Positions 3,270-53,070 of a stretch of 64,000 nt of DNA are shown piece by piece; position 1 is the stretch's first letter, and every line of letters starts with the position of its first letter. The stretch covers positions 2,630,219-2,694,218 of the forward strand of contig NZ_CP016757.1 in the NCBI RefSeq assembly GCF_001701045.1. Reading direction: 5' to 3'. The DNA is from Cloacibacillus porcorum. GTDB lineage: Bacteria > Synergistota > Synergistia > Synergistales > Synergistaceae. The position numbers were made by a program, and so were the translations under genes. The notes under the pieces were generated by a model. That model was not told the DNA's origin and searched no databases. It saw only the letters and a program-made list of their open reading frames with translations.

Positions 3270-3298
3270 TTGACATAAAGATAAATGAGTGTTATCAT
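3270..3298 (+). promoter_or_regulatory. Strong promoter for leader peptide and oxidoreductase operon
   Basis: TTGACA (3270-3275), a 17-base spacer and TATCAT (3293-3298) sit in AT-rich DNA about 30 bases ahead of the leader peptide start. Confidence 0.75.
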
Positions 3299-3328
3299 TC
3301 CCGCATTCTGTAAGAAGGAGGAAACGTT

Positions 3329-3406
3329 ATGTTAAGAAGTACAGGCACTCAGAACATAATAATTATAATTATTAACGCGGCTCCTCCTCGCAGGATCGGC
3401 GTCTAG
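3329..3406 (+). CDS. Isoleucine-rich attenuator leader peptide (25 aa)
   Basis: A 25-codon reading frame starts at ATG 3329 behind AAGGAGGA and reads MLRSTGTQNIIIIIINAAPP and then RRIGV, ending with TAG at 3404. Six isoleucine codons in a row (ATA ATA ATT ATA ATT ATT, 3356-3373) are followed within 55 bases by a strong terminator. This is the architecture of amino-acid attenuators such as those of ilv or his operons: a ribosome stalled on uncharged tRNA-Ile would favour an antiterminator. TCCTCC (3382-3387) can pair with the GGAGGA of the ribosome-binding site, and CTCGC (3387-3391) with GCGAG (3420-3424), giving the alternative folds required. The downstream operon encodes a 2-oxoacid:ferredoxin oxidoreductase, linking it to isoleucine supply. 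Confidence 0.85.
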   Translation: MLRSTGTQNIIIIIINAAPPRRIGV

Positions 3407-3425
3407 CGCCGTTTGTCAAGCGAGT

Positions 3426-3463
3426 AAAGGGGCCCTTTCGACTTAGAAAGGGTCCCTTTTTTA
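3426..3463 (+). terminator. Attenuator terminator
   Basis: A 14-bp stem (AAAGGGGCCCTTTC with GAAAGGGTCCCTTT, one G-U pair) around a 6-base loop, ending in a T run. It lies between the isoleucine leader peptide and the first structural gene, with no other gene before it, so it acts as an attenuator rather than an end-of-operon terminator. Its left arm overlaps the segment that can pair with 3383-3391. Confidence 0.88.
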
Positions 3464-3511: not shown

Positions 3512-4084
3512 ATGCAGAAGACAGTAGAGGTAAGATGGCACGGACGCGGCGGACAGGGAGCGAAGAGCGCTTCGGCGATACTCGCGGAGGTACTTTTTGA
3601 AGAGGGCAAGCACGTTCAGGCCTTCCCTGAATACGGCGCAGAGCGTCAGGGCGCGCCAATCCGCGCCTATAACAGGGTTTCCGACTCTCCGATACGCCGC
3701 CGTTGCGGCGTGCAGAATCCCAATATAGTGGTCGTCGTCGATCCGACGATGGTCGAGAGCGCCAATCCCACCGAGGGCTCGACAGAGGACGCCGTCTATC
3801 TCGTGAACAGCGCCGAGGACGCGAAGGTCCTCCGCGGCCGTCTCGGCGTGACCTCCAAGGCCCGCGTGCTCGTCGTCGACGCGACGAAGATCACGCTTGA
3901 GGAGCTCGGGCAGAACCGCCCCAACGCGCCGCTGCTCGGCGCTCTCTCGCACGTCTTCACCGACGTCCCCGTGGAGTCTTTCGTAAATCATTTCACCAGT
4001 AAGATGACGAAGCTGCCGAAGCCGGTGCTGGAGGCCAACCGCCGCGCGATACTCCGCGGCCGCACGGAGGCGGTGTTCGCATGA
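3512..4084 (+). CDS. 2-oxoacid:ferredoxin oxidoreductase, gamma subunit
   Basis: A 190-residue protein of the POR/KOR gamma family, starting at ATG behind AAGGAGG. The N-terminus EVRWHGRGGQGAKSAS holds the family's glycine-rich HGRGGQG motif, followed by FPEYGAERQGAPIRAYNR. It is the gamma subunit of a four-subunit enzyme interconverting a 2-oxoacid plus CoA with an acyl-CoA, CO2 and reduced ferredoxin. It is the first gene of a gamma-delta-alpha-beta operon. Whether the substrate is pyruvate, 2-oxobutyrate or a branched-chain oxoacid cannot be read from the sequence; the isoleucine leader favours an isoleucine-related oxoacid. Confidence 0.92.
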   Translation: MQKTVEVRWHGRGGQGAKSASAILAEVLFEEGKHVQAFPEYGAERQGAPIRAYNRVSDSPIRRRCGVQNPNIVVVVDPTMVESANPTEGSTEDAVYLVNSAEDAKVLRGRLGVTSKARVLVVDATKITLEELGQNRPNAPLLGALSHVFTDVPVESFVNHFTSKMTKLPKPVLEANRRAILRGRTEAVFA

Positions 4085-4425
4085 GCAAGCCGCAATGCTG
4101 GCAGGAGGTCCCGCTTGGCACGGTAGCCTTCGGAGCCTCCGCCCTTAAGGTGCAGACGGGGCTATGGCGTTCCATGCGCCCCATCATCGACGCCGATAAG
4201 TGCGTATCCTGCCTCAAATGCTGGATACAGTGCCCGGACGATTCGGTGGAGCTTAACGCTGACAACCGCGTATGCGGGATAAATTTATTTTTCTGCAAGG
4301 GCTGCGGCCTCTGCGAGAAGCTCTGCCCCACCAAGGCGATCACGATGCGTTCCGAGGCCTCGTTTGCCGGAGAGGCGATCCCCTCGGGAGAGAACCCGGG
4401 AGAGGTGGGCGCCCATGTCAAGTAA
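4081..4425 (+). CDS. 2-oxoacid:ferredoxin oxidoreductase, delta (ferredoxin-type) subunit
   Basis: A 114-residue protein overlapping the gamma gene by ATGA, so probably translationally coupled. It has two 4Fe-4S binding motifs, CVSCLKCWIQCP (about residues 41-52) and CKGCGLCEKLCP (about 71-82), preceded by a short N-terminal arm (GLWRSMRPIIDADKC) typical of the PorD/VorD subunit. It passes electrons from the thiamine-diphosphate site to soluble ferredoxin. The last 10 bases overlap the alpha gene. Confidence 0.93.
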   Translation: MSKPQCWQEVPLGTVAFGASALKVQTGLWRSMRPIIDADKCVSCLKCWIQCPDDSVELNADNRVCGINLFFCKGCGLCEKLCPTKAITMRSEASFAGEAIPSGENPGEVGAHVK

Positions 4426-5611
4426 GATGAAGGTCATGACTTCGGGCAACCTCGCCTTTGCGGAGGCGATGCGCCAGATAAATCCCGACGTGGTCGCCGC
4501 CTATCCGATAACGCCCTCCACGGAGATCCCGATGCGCTTCGCCGATTTTGTCGCCAACGGCAAGGTCGATTCGGAGTATGTCGCCGTCGAGAGCGAACAT
4601 TCCGCCATCTCGGCCTGCGTCGGCGCCTCGATCTCCGGCGGGCGCGTGATGACCGCCTCCTCCGCTAACGGCGTGGCGCTGATGCACGAGATATTCCCCA
4701 TCGCCGCCGCCTTCCGCGCGCCGATCGTCTTCGGCCTCGTGAACCGCTCGCTCGGCGCGCCCGTCAATATCCACTGCGACCATTCGGACAGTATGCCGGA
4801 GCGCGACTCCGGCTGGATACAGATATACTGCGAGGACGCGCAGGAGGTCTATGACAGCGTGCTGCTCGCGACGCGCCTCGCGGAGGACCCGCGCGTGCTG
4901 ACTCCCGTATTCGTCTGCCAGGACGGCTTTATCACCAGCCACTGCTATGAACCGGTGGAGCTGCTGGCGGATGAGACGGTGAAGAATTTCGTGGGGGAAA
5001 GAACGGCGGCCTATCCGCTGCTCGATACCGATAATCCCGTCTCATACGGCTCTTTCACCATGTCGGAATATTATTTTGAGATAAAGCGCAATCAGATGGA
5101 GGGGATGAACAACGTCCTCCCCGTCTACCGCGAACTCGCCGCGGAGCTGGAAAAGGAGACAGGACGCAATTACGCGCCGCTCGAAAGCTACCGCGCGGAG
5201 GACGCCGATTATCTGATCGTCATCATGTCCTCGGCGGCGGGCGTCGTCAAGGACGTCGTCGACGAACTGCGCGAGGAGGGCGTTAAGGCCGGCGCGCTGC
5301 GCGTGCGCTTCTTCCGCCCCTTCCCGGCGGAGGAGCTTACCGCGCTCGCACGCGGCAAAAAGGGGATCGCGATACTCGACCGCAGCGCGAGCATCGGCGG
5401 CACCGCCCCGCTCGCGGCGGAGGTAAAGTCCGTGCTCTATAACCTCGAGGAGCGCGTGCCGGCGCAGGAGTATATCTTCGGCCTCGGCGGACGCGACTTT
5501 TACGCGCAGGACGCGCGGGCGGTCTTTGAGAGGATGGCGGCGGGAGATTACAGCGCGCGGGCGCGCTTTATCGGGCTTCTTGAGCGAGGTGACGAAGATG
5601 TGCGCGCTTAA
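4415..5611 (+). CDS. 2-oxoacid:ferredoxin oxidoreductase, alpha subunit
   Basis: A 398-residue subunit starting MSSKMKVMTSGNLAFAEA; GGAGAGG/GGTGG lies 5-12 bases upstream of ATG 4415, and ATG 4427 is a second in-frame possibility. The N-terminal domain has the signature YPITPSTEIP and later ESEHSAISACVGAS, GGRVMTASSANG and NIHCDHSDSM, as in PorA/VorA. The C-terminal half carries the transketolase C-terminal-like domain (RVRFFRPFPAEEL, then ILDRSASIGG). Together with the beta subunit it forms the catalytic part of the enzyme. The reading frame overlaps both neighbouring genes. Confidence 0.93.
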   Translation: MSSKMKVMTSGNLAFAEAMRQINPDVVAAYPITPSTEIPMRFADFVANGKVDSEYVAVESEHSAISACVGASISGGRVMTASSANGVALMHEIFPIAAAFRAPIVFGLVNRSLGAPVNIHCDHSDSMPERDSGWIQIYCEDAQEVYDSVLLATRLAEDPRVLTPVFVCQDGFITSHCYEPVELLADETVKNFVGERTAAYPLLDTDNPVSYGSFTMSEYYFEIKRNQMEGMNNVLPVYRELAAELEKETGRNYAPLESYRAEDADYLIVIMSSAAGVVKDVVDELREEGVKAGALRVRFFRPFPAEELTALARGKKGIAILDRSASIGGTAPLAAEVKSVLYNLEERVPAQEYIFGLGGRDFYAQDARAVFERMAAGDYSARARFIGLLERGDEDVRA

Positions 5612-6530
5612 TATAAAGGAACTTACTAAAAAGGCCAGCCCGCTGACTCAGGGACACCGCATGTGCCCCGGCTGCGGCGCGCCTACGGCGATACGTCAGG
5701 CGCTGATGGGCGTCGACGACCCGGTGGTCGTGGTCAGCGCGACGGGCTGCATGGAGGTCTCGACGACCGTGTATCCCTACAGCTCCTGGCGCATGCCCTT
5801 CATGCACATCGCCTTTGAGAACGCCGGAGCGGGCATTTCCGGCATCGAGGCGGCCTATAAGGTGCTCCGCAAAAGGGGCAGGATAGACAAGAATATCAAA
5901 TTTGTCGCCTTCGGCGGCGACGGCGGCACCTATGACATCGGCCTCCAGTCTCTCTCAGGGGCGCTCGAACGCGGCCATGACTTCACCTATATCTGCTATA
6001 ACAACCAGGGTTATATGAACACCGGCGCGCAGCGCTCGAGCGCGACGCCGCAGAGCGCGAACGCGACCACTTCGCCCGCCGGCAGCGCCGTTCCCGGCAA
6101 GCTGCAGCGCGCGAAGGATCTCACGGAGATCGTCGCGGCCCACGACATCCCTTATGTCGCGCAGACCTCTCTGCATAATCCCTTCGATCTCATAGCGAAG
6201 GTGAAGCGCGCCGTCGAAACGCCTGGCCCCGCCTTCGTCAATGTGCTGGTGCCCTGTCCGCTTTTCTGGAAGATAAACCCCGCCAACCAGATGGAGATAT
6301 GTCAGCTGGCGGTGGACAGCAAATTCTGGCCCGTCTACGAGGTGGCGAATGGAGAGTATTCGCTCTCCTACGAGCCAAAGAACCCGCGCAGGCTGGAGGA
6401 TTTCCTCCGCGCGCAGGGACGTTACGCGCACCTCTTCAAGAAGGGGGCCGAGCGGCTCGACCTTGTCGAGGCGGCTCAGCGCGACGCCGACGAGAGTTGG
6501 GCGAAGCTGCTGAAAAAGTGCGGCAGATAA
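5598..6530 (+). CDS. 2-oxoacid:ferredoxin oxidoreductase, beta (TPP-binding) subunit
   Basis: A 310-residue subunit; ATG 5598 is chosen because GAGGTG lies 6 bases upstream and the protein then begins CALNIKELTKK like the family. The cluster and cofactor motifs are visible: GHRMCPGCGAP, SATGCMEVSTT and the thiamine-diphosphate loop FGGDGGTYDIGLQSLSGALERG followed by YNNQGYMNTGAQRS. This is the PorB/VorB type with cysteines for a 4Fe-4S cluster. It overlaps the alpha gene by 14 bases and ends the operon at a terminator. Confidence 0.93.
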   Translation: MCALNIKELTKKASPLTQGHRMCPGCGAPTAIRQALMGVDDPVVVVSATGCMEVSTTVYPYSSWRMPFMHIAFENAGAGISGIEAAYKVLRKRGRIDKNIKFVAFGGDGGTYDIGLQSLSGALERGHDFTYICYNNQGYMNTGAQRSSATPQSANATTSPAGSAVPGKLQRAKDLTEIVAAHDIPYVAQTSLHNPFDLIAKVKRAVETPGPAFVNVLVPCPLFWKINPANQMEICQLAVDSKFWPVYEVANGEYSLSYEPKNPRRLEDFLRAQGRYAHLFKKGAERLDLVEAAQRDADESWAKLLKKCGR

Positions 6531-10006: not shown

Positions 10007-11896
10007 TTAGAACTCGTAGGTCGCGGAGAGTATGAATCTGCGCTCCGGGTTGATGTAGCCGTTATTGTTAAGATAGAACTCTTTGTCAAAGAGGTTGACG
10101 CAGGCGAGCTTAATAGTCGTGCGGTCCACCTTCCATGACACCGCGGCGTTGACGATGAAGATATCTTCGTCGTCGTATACAGCGTTTGTAAGCTGGCGGT
10201 CTCCGTAGTAATGGGCGGACAGCTCGGCGTTCCAGGGGTCTTTCTTGAAGTTCAGTATTCCAGAGATATCCCAGCGCGGCATATTCGAACGCGTCCAGTC
10301 AGAACTGCCTGTCTTTTCTTCCGCGTGCAGATACGATAGTCCCTGCCTGTAAGACCAGTTCTCATGGAAATTCCACTTGTACTGTCCCTCAAATCCCCAG
10401 GCGCGGTATTCGTCGACGTTGATGTATTGTGTATAGCTGTCGTTCATATTGATTTTATCTTCCATATCCATATAGAACACATTAAAACTCCATGGATTTA
10501 TGGCTGTATTGTCTTTGACTCCGATATCATACGTCCAGCCTTTTTCCGGCTTTAGGTTGTGGTTCCCAATAACCCAGTTACTCTCGTCTCCAAATATCTG
10601 ATAAAAGCTCGGCATTGAGAAATAGCGCCCAGCAGTAACATAATACAATAACCCGTTTTTGTTCGCCCAATTCAAAGAAAACCGTGGTATGAATTCATGC
10701 GCATCATCTCCACTATCGATATCCCAATATTCATATCGGAGGCCAATATCAAACGCCGCATCACCTATGGGAATTGAAGTTTCCATATAAGGCGCATATT
10801 CGCTTCTAGTTTTGTCATATATATCATCGATGAAATTGGAAACTGAGACGTTTCCATTTTCATGTCTGAAATCCATGCCAAAAACAAACGGAAGCGTACC
10901 AATTTCCTGTTTTCTATTGTAAGTCGCTCCGAAGACTTTATCTCTGTAATGTGTCATAGATGACATAGGATCTGTGTAATTATAGGTATAATCACGTTTA
11001 TTGTCATAATAATAGAGGCGGCCAGTATTTACGCCATCAGCATAATTCAAAAGAAAACGCTTATACTCGTTTTTCTGCTTGTCATTCGCTGTACTCGCAC
11101 CATAGGTGTTATCCCATTCAGATTTATAATCTCCAAGCTCAGCCTTGAACGCCCAAGGACCTTTAGTGAAACCGAAGGAATAATCATTTCCTCTAAATTC
11201 CCTCCCATAGTCATAAAGTCCTTTTGCTGGGTCAGCAAGCTTTATCTTTGTCTCACCCTCTTGAGTTCTCGTATATCCGGCAAAAACTCTAAGGTCATTG
11301 CTTAGCAACACTGTTCCGCGAACATTGCCACGGAACCATTCCTTGTTACCGCCTTCCAAGGTCATACTGCCAGCAGACTTATCTGTTGGCTTACGCGTGA
11401 TTATATTAATGACACCACCAGCAGCGTTTGAGCCATAAATTGCGGAGCCCGCACCTTTTACTATCTCGATACGTTCTACATCTGTCAAAGATACGCTACG
11501 TAAATCAAAAGGGTTCCCCATCGCCCCTGTTCCATAATTAGTCCCCATGTAAGGGACACCATCAACAAGTAGCAAGACTTCCGACGTTAGCCCACGAACA
11601 CTGACATACTTATCCTGCGCCATCGAAGCGCTGTTCAAAAGTCCGTTGACGCCCGGCACCTTCGACAGCACATCCTGTACGTCGCGCGCGGCGCTGTTGT
11701 CGATATCCTCGCGCGTGATGACGTAGGTCTGCGCCGGTACGTCCGCCGTCGATTCCGCAAGGCGCGAACCGGTGACCTCCACCGCGGCGACCTCCGCCAC
11801 GTCGGCGCTGACTGCCTTCTCCGCCGCGAACGCCGGCAGGGCAAGCAATGACGAGAACAAGAAAACAGCCGCTGTTTTCCTCCACAGATGATACAT
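10007..11896 (-). CDS. btuB: TonB-dependent outer membrane receptor, BtuB-like
   Basis: A 629-residue outer-membrane receptor. Residues 1-24 are a signal peptide ending PAFA. The plug domain follows, with DVPAQTYVITREDI, DVLSKVPGVN, VSVRGL, LLLVDGVPYMG and VERIEIVKGAGSAIYGSNAAGGVINIITRK. The rest alternates strands of a 22-stranded barrel and ends with the outer-membrane signature aromatic residue (LSATYEF). A cobalamin riboswitch and terminator in its leader argue for corrinoid uptake. The middle of the gene (about 10400-11600) is clearly AT-richer than both its ends and its neighbours, suggesting recombination or foreign origin of the barrel. No TonB box was identified with confidence. Confidence 0.9.
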   Translation of the reverse strand: MYHLWRKTAAVFLFSSLLALPAFAAEKAVSADVAEVAAVEVTGSRLAESTADVPAQTYVITREDIDNSAARDVQDVLSKVPGVNGLLNSASMAQDKYVSVRGLTSEVLLLVDGVPYMGTNYGTGAMGNPFDLRSVSLTDVERIEIVKGAGSAIYGSNAAGGVINIITRKPTDKSAGSMTLEGGNKEWFRGNVRGTVLLSNDLRVFAGYTRTQEGETKIKLADPAKGLYDYGREFRGNDYSFGFTKGPWAFKAELGDYKSEWDNTYGASTANDKQKNEYKRFLLNYADGVNTGRLYYYDNKRDYTYNYTDPMSSMTHYRDKVFGATYNRKQEIGTLPFVFGMDFRHENGNVSVSNFIDDIYDKTRSEYAPYMETSIPIGDAAFDIGLRYEYWDIDSGDDAHEFIPRFSLNWANKNGLLYYVTAGRYFSMPSFYQIFGDESNWVIGNHNLKPEKGWTYDIGVKDNTAINPWSFNVFYMDMEDKINMNDSYTQYINVDEYRAWGFEGQYKWNFHENWSYRQGLSYLHAEEKTGSSDWTRSNMPRWDISGILNFKKDPWNAELSAHYYGDRQLTNAVYDDEDIFIVNAAVSWKVDRTTIKLACVNLFDKEFYLNNNGYINPERRFILSATYEF

Positions 11897-11969: not shown

Positions 11970-12019
11970 ATATACACCAAGCAGACGCTGCTACTCGCCC
12001 TCGCAAGCTGCAACTCATA

Positions 12020-12185
12020 CGGATACGGCAGATATTCTGACTCCTGATCATCCTACCGGCGCGCCTTCCCGCCTTCGGCAGTGGCACGGTGCGCTTTCGT
12101 CCCAGTTACAGCAACGGGGTTGTTCCGGATTCTCACCGGATTCCCTGACTGTATTCCGTTACAATATTCTTTTGTCCTGTTATTC
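12020..12185 (-). promoter_or_regulatory. Cobalamin riboswitch (AdoCbl class)
   Basis: Read on the minus strand, the conserved cobalamin-aptamer blocks occur in order: GGGAATCCGGTGAGAATCC (12126-12144), GAC.AAAGCGC, GCCACTGCC, GAAGGCGGGAAGGC, TAGGATGATC and GGAGTCAGAATATCTGCCG (about 12025-12043). This is a canonical B12 box arrangement upstream of a TonB receptor gene. The exact ends of the outer stem are approximate. Confidence 0.92.
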
Positions 12186-45147: not shown

Positions 45148-46851
45148 ATGACATACCGCTCCAAAGAACTCGGACTTTTTTCCGGCAAGGGATCGTCCTC
45201 GCGCCGCGCGATCTATAAGGGCTGCGGCTACGACGACGGCGACCTCTCCAAGCCGCTGATCGGCATTGTAAACACCGCGAACGACGCGGGGCTCGGCCAT
45301 GTGCACCTTGACCGCCTCGCGGCGCGGGTGCGCGCGGGCATTTTACAGGCGGGCGGCACGCCGTTTGAATTCGGAACCATCGCCACCTGCGGTGCGGTGC
45401 CCATCGGGATGCCGCACTTCCGCTATGAGCTGGTCATCCGCGACGTCATCGCCTCCTCCGTCGAGATAATGACCGGCGTGCAGCTGCTGGACGGCCTTGT
45501 GCTGCTCGCCTCTTGCGACAGCATCATCCCCGGCGTCCTTATGGGCGGCATCCGCGCCGACGTCCCATGCATCGTGCTGACGGGCGGCCCGCAGGAGGTC
45601 TGCAAGAGCGGCGGACGCAGCGTCGTGATGAGCGAGCTGGACCAGCTCGTATTCGGCGCGGATTACGCAAGCGACGAGGCGCGCGAGAAGATACGTTACC
45701 TCGAGGATCACGTCTGCCCCGGCCCTGGCGCCTGTTCGCTGATGGGCACGGCGAATACGATGCAGATTTTGATGGAGGGGCTGGGAATGGCGCTGCCTGG
45801 CTCGTCCACGGTCCCCGCCGTCTACGCGGAGAAGGAACGCTTCGCGACACAGACGGGACGCCGCATCGTGGAGCTCGTCAAGGAGGGAGTGAAGCCTAAG
45901 GATATCCTCACGCGCGAGACGCTCTTGAACGGTGTCATTCTCACGATGGCCCTCGCGGGCTCGACCAACGCAGTGCTGCATCTGCTCTCCTTCGCGCGCG
46001 AGGTGGGCGTGGGGCTGACGCTCGACGATTTTGACAAATTATCGGAGACGATACCCGTCATCAGCCGCGTCATCCCGACGGGAAAGGCGACGGTCATCGA
46101 CCTCTACAACGCGGGCGGCGTCCCCGCCGTCCTCGGCGAGATGAGGGACTTCCTACACCAGGAATGCCTCACCGTCTCCGGACACACAATCGGCGAGATA
46201 GCGGCGCTGCGCCGCTCCTCCGACCACGATACGCTGACGACCGTCGACGCCCCTGTCTTTAAAAACGGCGGCATCGCTGTGATGAAGGGCAACATCACGC
46301 CCAACGGCGCGATCTGCCGCACGACGACCATCTCCGAGAAGATACGCAGGTTCGCGGGACCGGCGCGCGTCTTCAACTCCGACGAGGAGGCGCACCACGC
46401 GGTGGTGACGGGCGATATCAAAAGGGGCGACGTCGTCGTCATCCGTTATGAGGGGCCGCGCGGCGCGCCCGGCATGCGCGAGATGATGATGACGACCGAC
46501 GCGCTGGTCGGCATCGGCATGGGGCAGGAGGTATTCGTACTCACCGACGGACGCTTCTCAGGCTTTACCGAAGGGGCGGCGATCGGCCATATCTCCCCCG
46601 AGGCAGCGGTCGGCGGCGTGATCGCGGTCGTTGAGGACGGGGACATCATCGAGATAGACATCCCCGGGCGCACGGTGAACCTCGACCTGCCCGAAGAGGT
46701 GATCGCGGCCCGCCTCGCGAAGTGGAAGCTGCCCCTCAAAAGGGAGCGCGGCATCCTCGGCATCTACGCGAAGAGCGCCCTCCAGGCCCACCTGGGCGCG
46801 ATGATCGACGACCGCGTAACCGAAGAAGAACAGGTGCGCCGGGAGTTTTAG
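45148..46851 (+). CDS. IlvD/Edd-family dehydratase
   Basis: A 567-residue Fe-S dehydratase of the dihydroxyacid/phosphogluconate dehydratase family. Visible family blocks: [42 protein letters not shown] and, near the C-terminus, [40 protein letters not shown]. Two cluster cysteines are in SCDSIIPG and GPGACSLMG; the N-terminal Cys seen in 4Fe-4S versions (PCN) is replaced in [12 protein letters not shown], hinting at a variant cluster. Acting on a hydroxy- or sugar-acid is expected, but its location behind the proline racemase-family gene and away from ilv genes makes branched-chain biosynthesis uncertain. SD GAAGGGAC precedes ATG. Confidence 0.88.
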
Positions 46852-51469: not shown

Positions 51470-51737
51470 ATAAACTGTATAGAGCCACAGTTGATCCCAC
51501 GTACGATTACGTTACCTGCGTATATAAATTTACAATAGAGTCTATTGCTTGTTAAATAAAATAATTAATTATAAAATACTTGAATATTTAAAAATTGTCA
51601 ATATTTTTTTATAATATGCTCACATCATAAAGGATAACAGTTTTTATACAATGATTAATAAACATTACTGAATGAACTTTACAACTTGCACGATACTGTT
51701 TAGAATACTTGCAAAGAGCGGAAGACTTTTCCGCCGC
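51470..51737. other. Intergenic region between abgT-like gene and TPP riboswitch
   Basis: About 270 AT-rich bases that should contain promoters for both directions. A TTTACAACTTGCACGATACTGTTTAGAATACTT-type region at 51680-51710 is a plausible promoter for the riboswitch transcript. Confidence 0.35.
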
Positions 51738-51830
51738 AGTTACGGGGAGCCTGAACTTTCAGGCTGAGAGGAGGCTGGCCCTCGACCCGATGAACCTGAT
51801 GTGGGTAATGCCACCGTAGGGAGAATAGCT
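51738..51830 (+). promoter_or_regulatory. TPP riboswitch (THI element)
   Basis: Conserved thiamine pyrophosphate aptamer blocks in order: ACGGGGAGCCTGA, GGCTGAGAGGAGGC, CGACCC, GATGAACCTGATGTGGGTAA and TGCCACCGTAGGGAG. It precedes a terminator and the CytX gene. Confidence 0.96.
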
Positions 51831-51838
51831 TGGATCAG

Positions 51839-51877
51839 ATGACGGCTGTCCTTCTTGGAGGGGCCGTCATTATTTTT
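51839..51877 (+). terminator. Expression-platform terminator of the TPP riboswitch
   Basis: ATGACGGC pairs with GCCGTCAT around a 16-base loop, then TATTTTT; it lies between aptamer and start codon, so thiamine pyrophosphate binding should switch the gene off. Confidence 0.85.
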
Positions 51878-51891
51878 AAGGGGTGTTTTCG

Positions 51892-53070
51892 GTGAACGAA
51901 GAGAAGAGAACGACAACTGCTAACGCGCTGATCTGGTTCGGCGCGGCGGTCTCCATCGCGGAGATATATACTGGCACGCTGATGGCGCCGCTGGGGATGG
52001 CACGCGGCATGGGGGCGGTAGTCGCGGGGCATCTGATCGGCGGCTTCCTCATGTATCTCGCGGCTTTGATCGGCGGCCTGTCGGGACACGGCGCGATGGA
52101 GAGCGTCAAGCTCTCCTTCGGCGAGCAGGGGGCAAAGTTTTTCGCGGCGCTTAACGTGCTGCAGCTTGTGGGCTGGACGGCGGTGATGATCGCAGGCGGC
52201 GCGATCTCGCTCGGCATCATCCTCAATCCGATGTACGGCACGGAGAATACCCTTTGGTGCGGCGTGATCGGCATCATGATCGCCATCTGGATAATGCTCG
52301 ATATGAAGAACTTCGAGCGCGTCAACAAGCTCGCGATGGCGGCGCTCTTCATCCTCACGCTGGTACTCTCCTTCATCGTCTTCAAGCGCGGCGCGACGGA
52401 GGCGCCCCGCGGCGTGATGAGCTTTGCCGACGCGATGGAGCTATCGGTGGCGATGCCCCTTTCTTGGCTGCCGCTGATCTCCGATTATATGCGCGACGCG
52501 GAGGAGCCAAAAAAGAGCGCCGCCGTGAGCACCGTCATCTATTCGCTGGCCAGCTGCTGGATGTATTTCATCGGCCTTGGCGTCGCGATCTACACGGGAG
52601 GTTCGGATATCGCGAAGATTATGCTTGAGGCCGGACTCGGCATCGCGGGCGTGGTCATCGTCGCCTTCTCCACCGTGACGACGACCTTTCTCGACGCCTA
52701 TTCGGCGGGCATCAGTTTCCACGTAGTATTCAGCGGGATAAAGGAGAAGGCCGCGGGAGTCGCCGTCTGCGCGATCGGCACGATGACCGCCATTTTTGCG
52801 CGCTCCGACAGCTACGAAAACCTGCTCTATCTCATCTCCTCCGTCTTCGCGCCGATGGCGGCGGTGATGGTGACGGACTTTTTCATCCTGAAGAGGAACC
52901 GCGCGGCAAAGCAGATCTCGCTGCGGAACATCATCTTGTGGGCCGTCGGTTTCGCCCTCTACCGCTATCTCATGACCGTCGGCAGCCCAATAGGCGCGAC
53001 GCTGCCGGTGATCGCCGCGACCGTCGGACTTACCTGGCTGGCGGGCGTGGCCTTACCGGAGAAATCGTAA
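51892..53070 (+). CDS. cytX: CytX, putative hydroxymethylpyrimidine transporter (NCS1 family)
   Basis: A 392-residue inner-membrane protein with about 12 helices, family NCS1/cytosine permease, CytX subgroup: FGAAVSIAEIYTGTLMAPLGMARG, GHLIGGFLMYLAALIG, LNVLQLVGWTAVMIAGGA and AMPLSWLPLISDYMRDAEEPKKSA. CytX genes commonly follow TPP riboswitches and import thiamine pyrimidine precursors, which fits the riboswitch here. GTG 51892 is chosen with AAGGGG about 8 bases upstream; GTG 51883 would lie on that site. Confidence 0.92.
   Translation: MNEEKRTTTANALIWFGAAVSIAEIYTGTLMAPLGMARGMGAVVAGHLIGGFLMYLAALIGGLSGHGAMESVKLSFGEQGAKFFAALNVLQLVGWTAVMIAGGAISLGIILNPMYGTENTLWCGVIGIMIAIWIMLDMKNFERVNKLAMAALFILTLVLSFIVFKRGATEAPRGVMSFADAMELSVAMPLSWLPLISDYMRDAEEPKKSAAVSTVIYSLASCWMYFIGLGVAIYTGGSDIAKIMLEAGLGIAGVVIVAFSTVTTTFLDAYSAGISFHVVFSGIKEKAAGVAVCAIGTMTAIFARSDSYENLLYLISSVFAPMAAVMVTDFFILKRNRAAKQISLRNIILWAVGFALYRYLMTVGSPIGATLPVIAATVGLTWLAGVALPEKS

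Follow-up and report, generated by a model that had tools for sequence, protein, structure and literature searches.

An isoleucine leader peptide predicted to attenuate a 2-oxoacid:ferredoxin oxidoreductase operon in Synergistaceae

The operon for a 2-oxoacid:ferredoxin oxidoreductase (KOR) of Cloacibacillus porcorum lies behind a leader that we predict, with a confidence close to certainty, to be a working ribosome-mediated transcription attenuator specific for isoleucine. A biosynthetic use of KOR, in the formation of isoleucine, is probable, and propionyl-CoA is the best reading of its substrate, favoured with rather less assurance. We infer direction and substrate from regulation and phyletic pattern. 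Working reductively, as a 2-oxobutyrate synthase, KOR would convert propionyl-CoA, CO2 and reduced ferredoxin to 2-oxobutyrate, which IlvBN, IlvC, IlvD and a transaminase would then carry to isoleucine.

The source DNA was a window (the whole stretch analysed, 64 kb, G+C 56.7%) of the 3.585-Mb single-contig C. porcorum genome (G000). The promoter, ribosome-binding site, 25-codon peptide with six Ile codons and 14-bp terminator named in the original prediction were all located in the sequence, on the forward strand. The promoter is of the sigma-70 type, TTGACA-17-TATCAT (3270-3298), with an extended -10 (TG), 11/12 matches and a predicted start near 3305. The leader Shine-Dalgarno (3315-3322) is at the same time region 1 of the attenuator, its nucleotides 3316-3322 pairing with 3382-3388. 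Behind it, the leader ORF (3329-3406) encodes the peptide MLRSTGTQNIIIIIINAAPPRRIGV, with Ile codons at 3356-3373. Region 2 (GGCUCCUCCUCGC, 3379-3391) makes the 5' side of the antiterminator and has the leader Shine-Dalgarno as alternative partner, and region 3 (GCGAGUAAAGGGGCC, 3420-3434) makes the 3' side and overlaps the 5' arm of the terminator. A small hairpin with the leader stop codon (GGCGUCUAGCGCC, 3398-3410) sits in the antiterminator loop. The intrinsic terminator, 14 bp plus a U tract (3426-3462, pairs 3426-3459), is placed between the leader and the first gene. Within the window this is the sole short ORF with a run of at least five consecutive Ile codons, and no such ORF appeared in 40 dinucleotide shuffles. 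The leader RNA folds at -58.5 kcal/mol, compared with -36.7 +/- 3.8 kcal/mol for shuffles (z -5.7). A scan of the window with Rfam models at gathering score gave no T-box or other match at the leader. Elsewhere in the window, Rfam identified a cobalamin riboswitch (12010-12175, reverse strand), upstream of the ORF at 10007-11896, and a TPP riboswitch (51733-51839, forward strand), upstream of the ORF at 51883-53070.

Terminator and antiterminator are made mutually exclusive by the pairing of GGCUCC (3379-3384) with GGGGCC (3429-3434), the latter within the 5' arm of the terminator. Together with CUCGC/GCGAG (3387-3391/3420-3424), this helix forms an antiterminator of 11 pairs that encloses the stop-codon hairpin; by itself, the 3387-3391/3420-3424 helix is compatible with the terminator. 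The original prediction had both this pairing and that of the Shine-Dalgarno with 3382-3388 correct letter for letter, but the excluding helix was absent from it. Predicted energies are about -26 to -34 kcal/mol for the antiterminator and about -18 to -26 kcal/mol for the terminator, ranges that fit a switch.

We infer the following stalling geometry at the leader. If charged tRNA-Ile is scarce, the ribosome would stall on the Ile run with its leading edge short of region 2, leaving 3379-3391 to pair with 3420-3434; the antiterminator would form and the operon would be read. If isoleucine is ample, the ribosome would reach the stop at 3404 and cover region 2 or, alternatively, the leader's own Shine-Dalgarno would later take up region 2, and in either case the terminator would form. 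The usual footprint of the ribosome fits attenuation at both positions, ending before 3379 when an early Ile codon is in the A site and covering most of 3384-3416 when the ribosome is at the stop codon. Two expectations voiced at the outset, that low charged tRNA-Ile should raise expression and that the oxidoreductase would have a biosynthetic role, are well supported by the comparative evidence.

An orthologous KOR operon was found in 31 genomes of the family, a count that includes the partial G024, G034 and G048. Where the region upstream of it could be read, the leader is present in 27 of 28 Synergistaceae genomes. The covariance model detected it in 27 of the 53 family genomes and in none without the operon, at one site per genome; only two draft genomes have an additional copy, close to a contig end. 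Four operon genomes gave no leader match: three are cut by contig ends, and in the other (G037) no leader was detectable by eye upstream of the operon, where a promoter-like sequence remains. Conservation of the Ile codons, the check on which the idea had been made to depend, was borne out, with 5-6 Ile in every orthologous leader examined (one reads I-M-I-I-I). The run is followed by an AAPPR-like tail, its codons vary synonymously among ATA, ATT and ATC, and the GGAGG of the leader Shine-Dalgarno is invariant across 18 aligned leaders. The share of antiterminator cells that are paired is 97% in 18 sequences and 98% in a more diverse set of 22, the former count being the safer because the 22-sequence alignment was fitted to the structure; sliding the antiterminator by 1-3 columns leaves 35-58% of cells paired. 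Compensatory changes were observed at five antiterminator pairs in the wider set of 22 sequences. No such leader was seen at KOR orthologues in other families of the phylum, and a search for a T-box or other Rfam regulator at KOR of deeper lineages found none.

The elements of a trp/ilv-type attenuator are found together: a leader with an Ile run, an intrinsic terminator and an excluding antiterminator supported by covariation. As in the attenuators of E. coli ilvGMEDA and ilvBN and of Corynebacterium ilvBNC, a short leader peptide carries a run of the regulated amino acid, an antiterminator and an intrinsic terminator exclude each other, and the stop codon comes close behind region 2. Unlike in the ilv/leu attenuators, the run contains no codons but Ile, a ferredoxin-dependent 2-oxoacid oxidoreductase is the target, the host phylum is Synergistota, and the leader's own Shine-Dalgarno serves as region 1 in place of a segment inside the leader coding sequence.

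Downstream of the leader, the KOR genes follow on the forward strand in the order gamma-delta-alpha-beta. The gamma subunit (3512-4084; PorC/KorC subfamily, TIGR02175, 175 bits, cut-off 81) and the ferredoxin-like delta subunit (4081-4425; TIGR02179, 87 bits, cut-off 60) pass their subfamily cut-offs. The alpha subunit (4415-5611) and the TPP-binding beta subunit (5598-6530; motif GGDGGTYDIG) match strongly, with E values of 3e-83 and 1e-81 to the alpha and beta chains of 9bt4, and KOR is on these grounds of the four-subunit POR/VOR type. The starts ATG 4415, for which 4427 is also possible, and ATG 5598 were chosen in the analysis. The best NCBIfam models of alpha and beta are PorA_Arch and PorB, and none of the pyruvate synthase equivalog cut-offs (PorA, PorB, PorC and PorD) was reached (478/550, 340/405, 183/270 and 89/120 bits). 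KOR shares its gamma, delta, alpha and beta subunits and its Fe-S and TPP motifs with four-subunit pyruvate (and ketoisovalerate) ferredoxin oxidoreductases such as the solved 9bt4, but no subunit reaches any listed equivalog cut-off, and PDB alignments of the subunits do not separate substrates. The closest contigs carrying the alpha subunit belong to Synergistaceae, including Candidatus Caccocola and Synergistes, and archaeal relatives of alpha are 43-46% identical (L038, L040, L042). Other, distant KOR-type alpha matches occur in all 53 family genomes, three of them in the source genome, and are nearly always single-chain PFORs of about 1180 aa; pyruvate oxidation need not, therefore, depend on the leader-controlled KOR.

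Further information about the substrate came from a covariance model scan of 188 genomes of the phylum. Homologous Ile leaders were found outside Synergistaceae in two further families of the order, f4 (G069, G070) and f5 (G073-G076), reading AIIIITSAAPPRRTGA or AIII(I)ANAAPPRGNGA (ADAAPPRGNGD in G076), directly upstream of the gene for a 320-aa PLP enzyme; G076 has a second, neighbouring leader copy without that gene directly behind it. The best models for the PLP enzyme are serine/threonine dehydratase and threonine ammonia-lyase, and as it falls below every curated cut-off, threonine deamination there is likely at most. At 1e-90, no KOR orthologue was found in the f4 and f5 genomes carrying the Ile leader. 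2-Oxobutyrate is usually formed by enzymes of the threonine/serine dehydratase type. Read most simply, one Ile switch would govern whichever enzyme supplies 2-oxobutyrate, and the swap of the leader from KOR to a dehydratase-like gene, an indirect argument but the main one, favours carboxylation of propionyl-CoA to 2-oxobutyrate over a 2-methylbutyryl-CoA route. Both substrates had been offered originally; the swap, and genomes without IlvA or CimA whose ilv leaders contain Ile codons, leave propionyl-CoA the favoured one and 2-methylbutyryl-CoA the less favoured.

The isoleucine pathway around KOR was also surveyed, with presence and absence counts that depend on MAG completeness. AHAS, ilvC, ilvD and methylmalonyl-CoA mutase-type genes are present, the last in 43 of the 53 family genomes and a likely source of propionyl-CoA. 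Propionate is a product of Cloacibacillus porcorum, and Ile, Val or Leu do not support its growth (PMC3709534). Its ilvN-ilvC-ilvB-ilvD operon stands behind a separate Val+Ile leader, MRRDNLTSNVANIVVVVRIISSGSPEVAGA (L074:2226-2318, G000:C1, upstream of ilvN), and with two distinct leaders the shared pathway would respond to Val+Ile and KOR to Ile alone. The source genome also encodes a full-length IlvA (THD1, 610 bits), so 2-oxobutyrate need not come from KOR alone, and replacement of a missing IlvA by KOR is ruled out in this organism. CimA was considered as a source of 2-oxobutyrate and rejected: no match exceeds the cut-off among the 53 family genomes, most adjoin ilvC and look like LeuA, and one partial stronger match is in G051. 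In genus g12 (four genomes, 82-96% complete), a threonine-dehydratase relative is absent at 1e-40 and CimA is absent over its cut-off; ilvC and ilvD were found, and the readable ilv leaders contain Ile codons. In genus g6 and in G042, without IlvA, the ilv leader run has one Ile only. The Ile content of ilv leaders supports the 2-oxobutyrate route in g12 and is ambiguous in g6 and G042. As some family genomes lack KOR, IlvA and CimA together, absence patterns alone prove little.

Some observations concern neighbouring parts of branched-chain metabolism. Where relatives have a LeuA-like gene next to ilvC, their ilv leaders are rich in Leu/Val instead of being Val+Ile, and leader codons seem to follow pathway content. 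No LeuA-like match (citramalate synthase model, 1e-60) was found in G000, G014, G005, G043, G044, G046, G047 and G049, which may be without leucine synthesis. Five IlvD/Edd-type dehydratases are encoded in the source genome, one of them in the window (45148-46851, forward strand; 594 bits, below the IlvD cut-off).

Under the same attenuator, KOR could instead carboxylate 2-methylbutyryl-CoA to 3-methyl-2-oxopentanoate, giving isoleucine by direct transamination with AHAS bypassed, an alternative we consider unlikely. Rumen anaerobes are known to make isoleucine from 2-methylbutyrate (Robinson and Allison 1969, as cited in PMC7356843, which reviews this route together with that from phenylacetate to phenylalanine in the rumen), and the single-Ile ilv leaders of g6 and G042 would fit such a bypass. 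However, the IlvA-less g12 genomes retain Ile codons in the ilv leader, and the same KOR leader precedes a threonine-dehydratase-like gene where KOR is missing. The subunits score higher with pyruvate synthase models than with those of ketoisovalerate oxidoreductase (alpha, 478 versus 349 bits). 2-Methylbutyryl-CoA would give anteiso-type fatty acids. In C. porcorum the branched fatty acids are mainly iso (PMC3709534), which also argues against this substrate.

A slightly less likely alternative keeps the attenuator and lets KOR run oxidatively, disposing of 2-oxobutyrate, pyruvate or branched 2-oxoacids, with Ile starvation as a general signal of amino-acid shortage. Such a signal fits poorly with a run of pure Ile, when the ilv operon of the same genome has a mixed Val/Ile leader, and it would be futile to induce an oxidative enzyme when the matching amino acid runs short. 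In favour of oxidation are the amino-acid fermentation of C. porcorum (PMC3709534), the reversibility of an enzyme family whose usual annotation is oxidative, and the absence of such a leader from the deeper orthologues; yet the leader is common to a biosynthetic-type dehydratase, and pyruvate oxidation can be covered by the single-chain PFORs. Least credible, to the point of being negligible, is that the leader is not a working attenuator but a short ORF and a terminator brought together by coincidence, given its conservation, its covarying pairs, the synonymous changes in its codons and its restriction to genomes with the operon.

Related leaders are present elsewhere in Synergistota. The 188-genome scan revealed the Phe leaders SFFFFFTGAGP and GFFFFTNVGP before phenylacetate-CoA-ligase-like genes in f10. 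A second model was trained also on Phe leaders and read at E up to 0.01, so some further leaders may be false; about 30 sites, where most leaders contain Phe or Tyr, are immediately upstream of ORFs that are PaaK-like by N-terminal sequence. Of these ORFs, 16 were scanned, and all matched TIGR02155 best, below its cut-off. Leaders with terminators, most of them containing Phe/Tyr, were noted immediately upstream of phenylacetate-CoA-ligase-like genes in several families (L183, L184, L186, L187, L191, L195, L196, L198, L202, L205, L213, L214, L216, L222, L228 and L236). Met-run leaders (L227 and L234) stand upstream of a gene for homocysteine synthase, whose leader has the run MMM, and of one for a MetQ-type lipoprotein. 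Phe/Tyr-rich leaders were also seen by eye upstream of transporter-like ORFs (L199, L204, L219, L218), two of which were scanned and had no NCBIfam match at 1e-30. We suspect that activation of phenylacetate and 4-hydroxyphenylacetate prepares them for carboxylation to arylpyruvates. An arylpyruvate oxidoreductase was looked for beside the PaaK-like genes, and none was obvious on inspection of the ORFs listed downstream. That attenuators also mark further carboxylation routes is a weaker suggestion, drawn from the Phe/Tyr leaders at PaaK-like genes. It is tempting, though we lean slightly to doubt, to propose that in Synergistota one family of leader-peptide attenuators switches on reductive-carboxylation routes, for Ile through KOR as 2-oxobutyrate synthase and for Phe/Tyr by way of phenylacetate-type CoA ligases that supply an arylpyruvate:ferredoxin oxidoreductase. 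If this is true, leader codons would tell in which direction enzymes with a catabolic annotation run and what they make.

2-Oxoacid:ferredoxin oxidoreductases are reversible, and their direction and substrate cannot be read from sequence. An amino-acid-specific attenuator conserved before such an enzyme is regulatory evidence for its anabolic product. In the open-access literature we found no prior report of this KOR attenuator and no description of leader-peptide attenuation in Synergistota; as far as searched, the type of mechanism is known, and the target, the phylum and the implied enzyme direction are new. The portion of PMC9413887 consulted mentions Synergistetes only for the repressor HisR, and the CodY regulon in Synergistetes includes ilv genes (PMC9318921). 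Ferredoxin-dependent formation of 2-oxobutyrate from propionyl-CoA, reviewed in PMC7476758, has been on record since 1969 as the 2-oxobutyrate (alpha-ketobutyrate) synthase activity of anaerobes (Buchanan 1969, as cited there), the same reaction as proposed here and likewise feeding isoleucine; the review also proposes that in some organisms the route may be from propionyl-CoA and formate (formate-lyase). That synthase is known as an activity, whereas here regulation points to a particular operon, and the KOR operon provides a concrete gene set to test for 2-oxobutyrate formation from propionyl-CoA.

In summary, our results suggest that KOR in gut and anaerobic Synergistaceae would build isoleucine and not, as its annotation implies, serve acid breakdown. 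They also suggest that leader-peptide attenuation is widespread in Synergistota, where leader codons could serve enzyme annotation.
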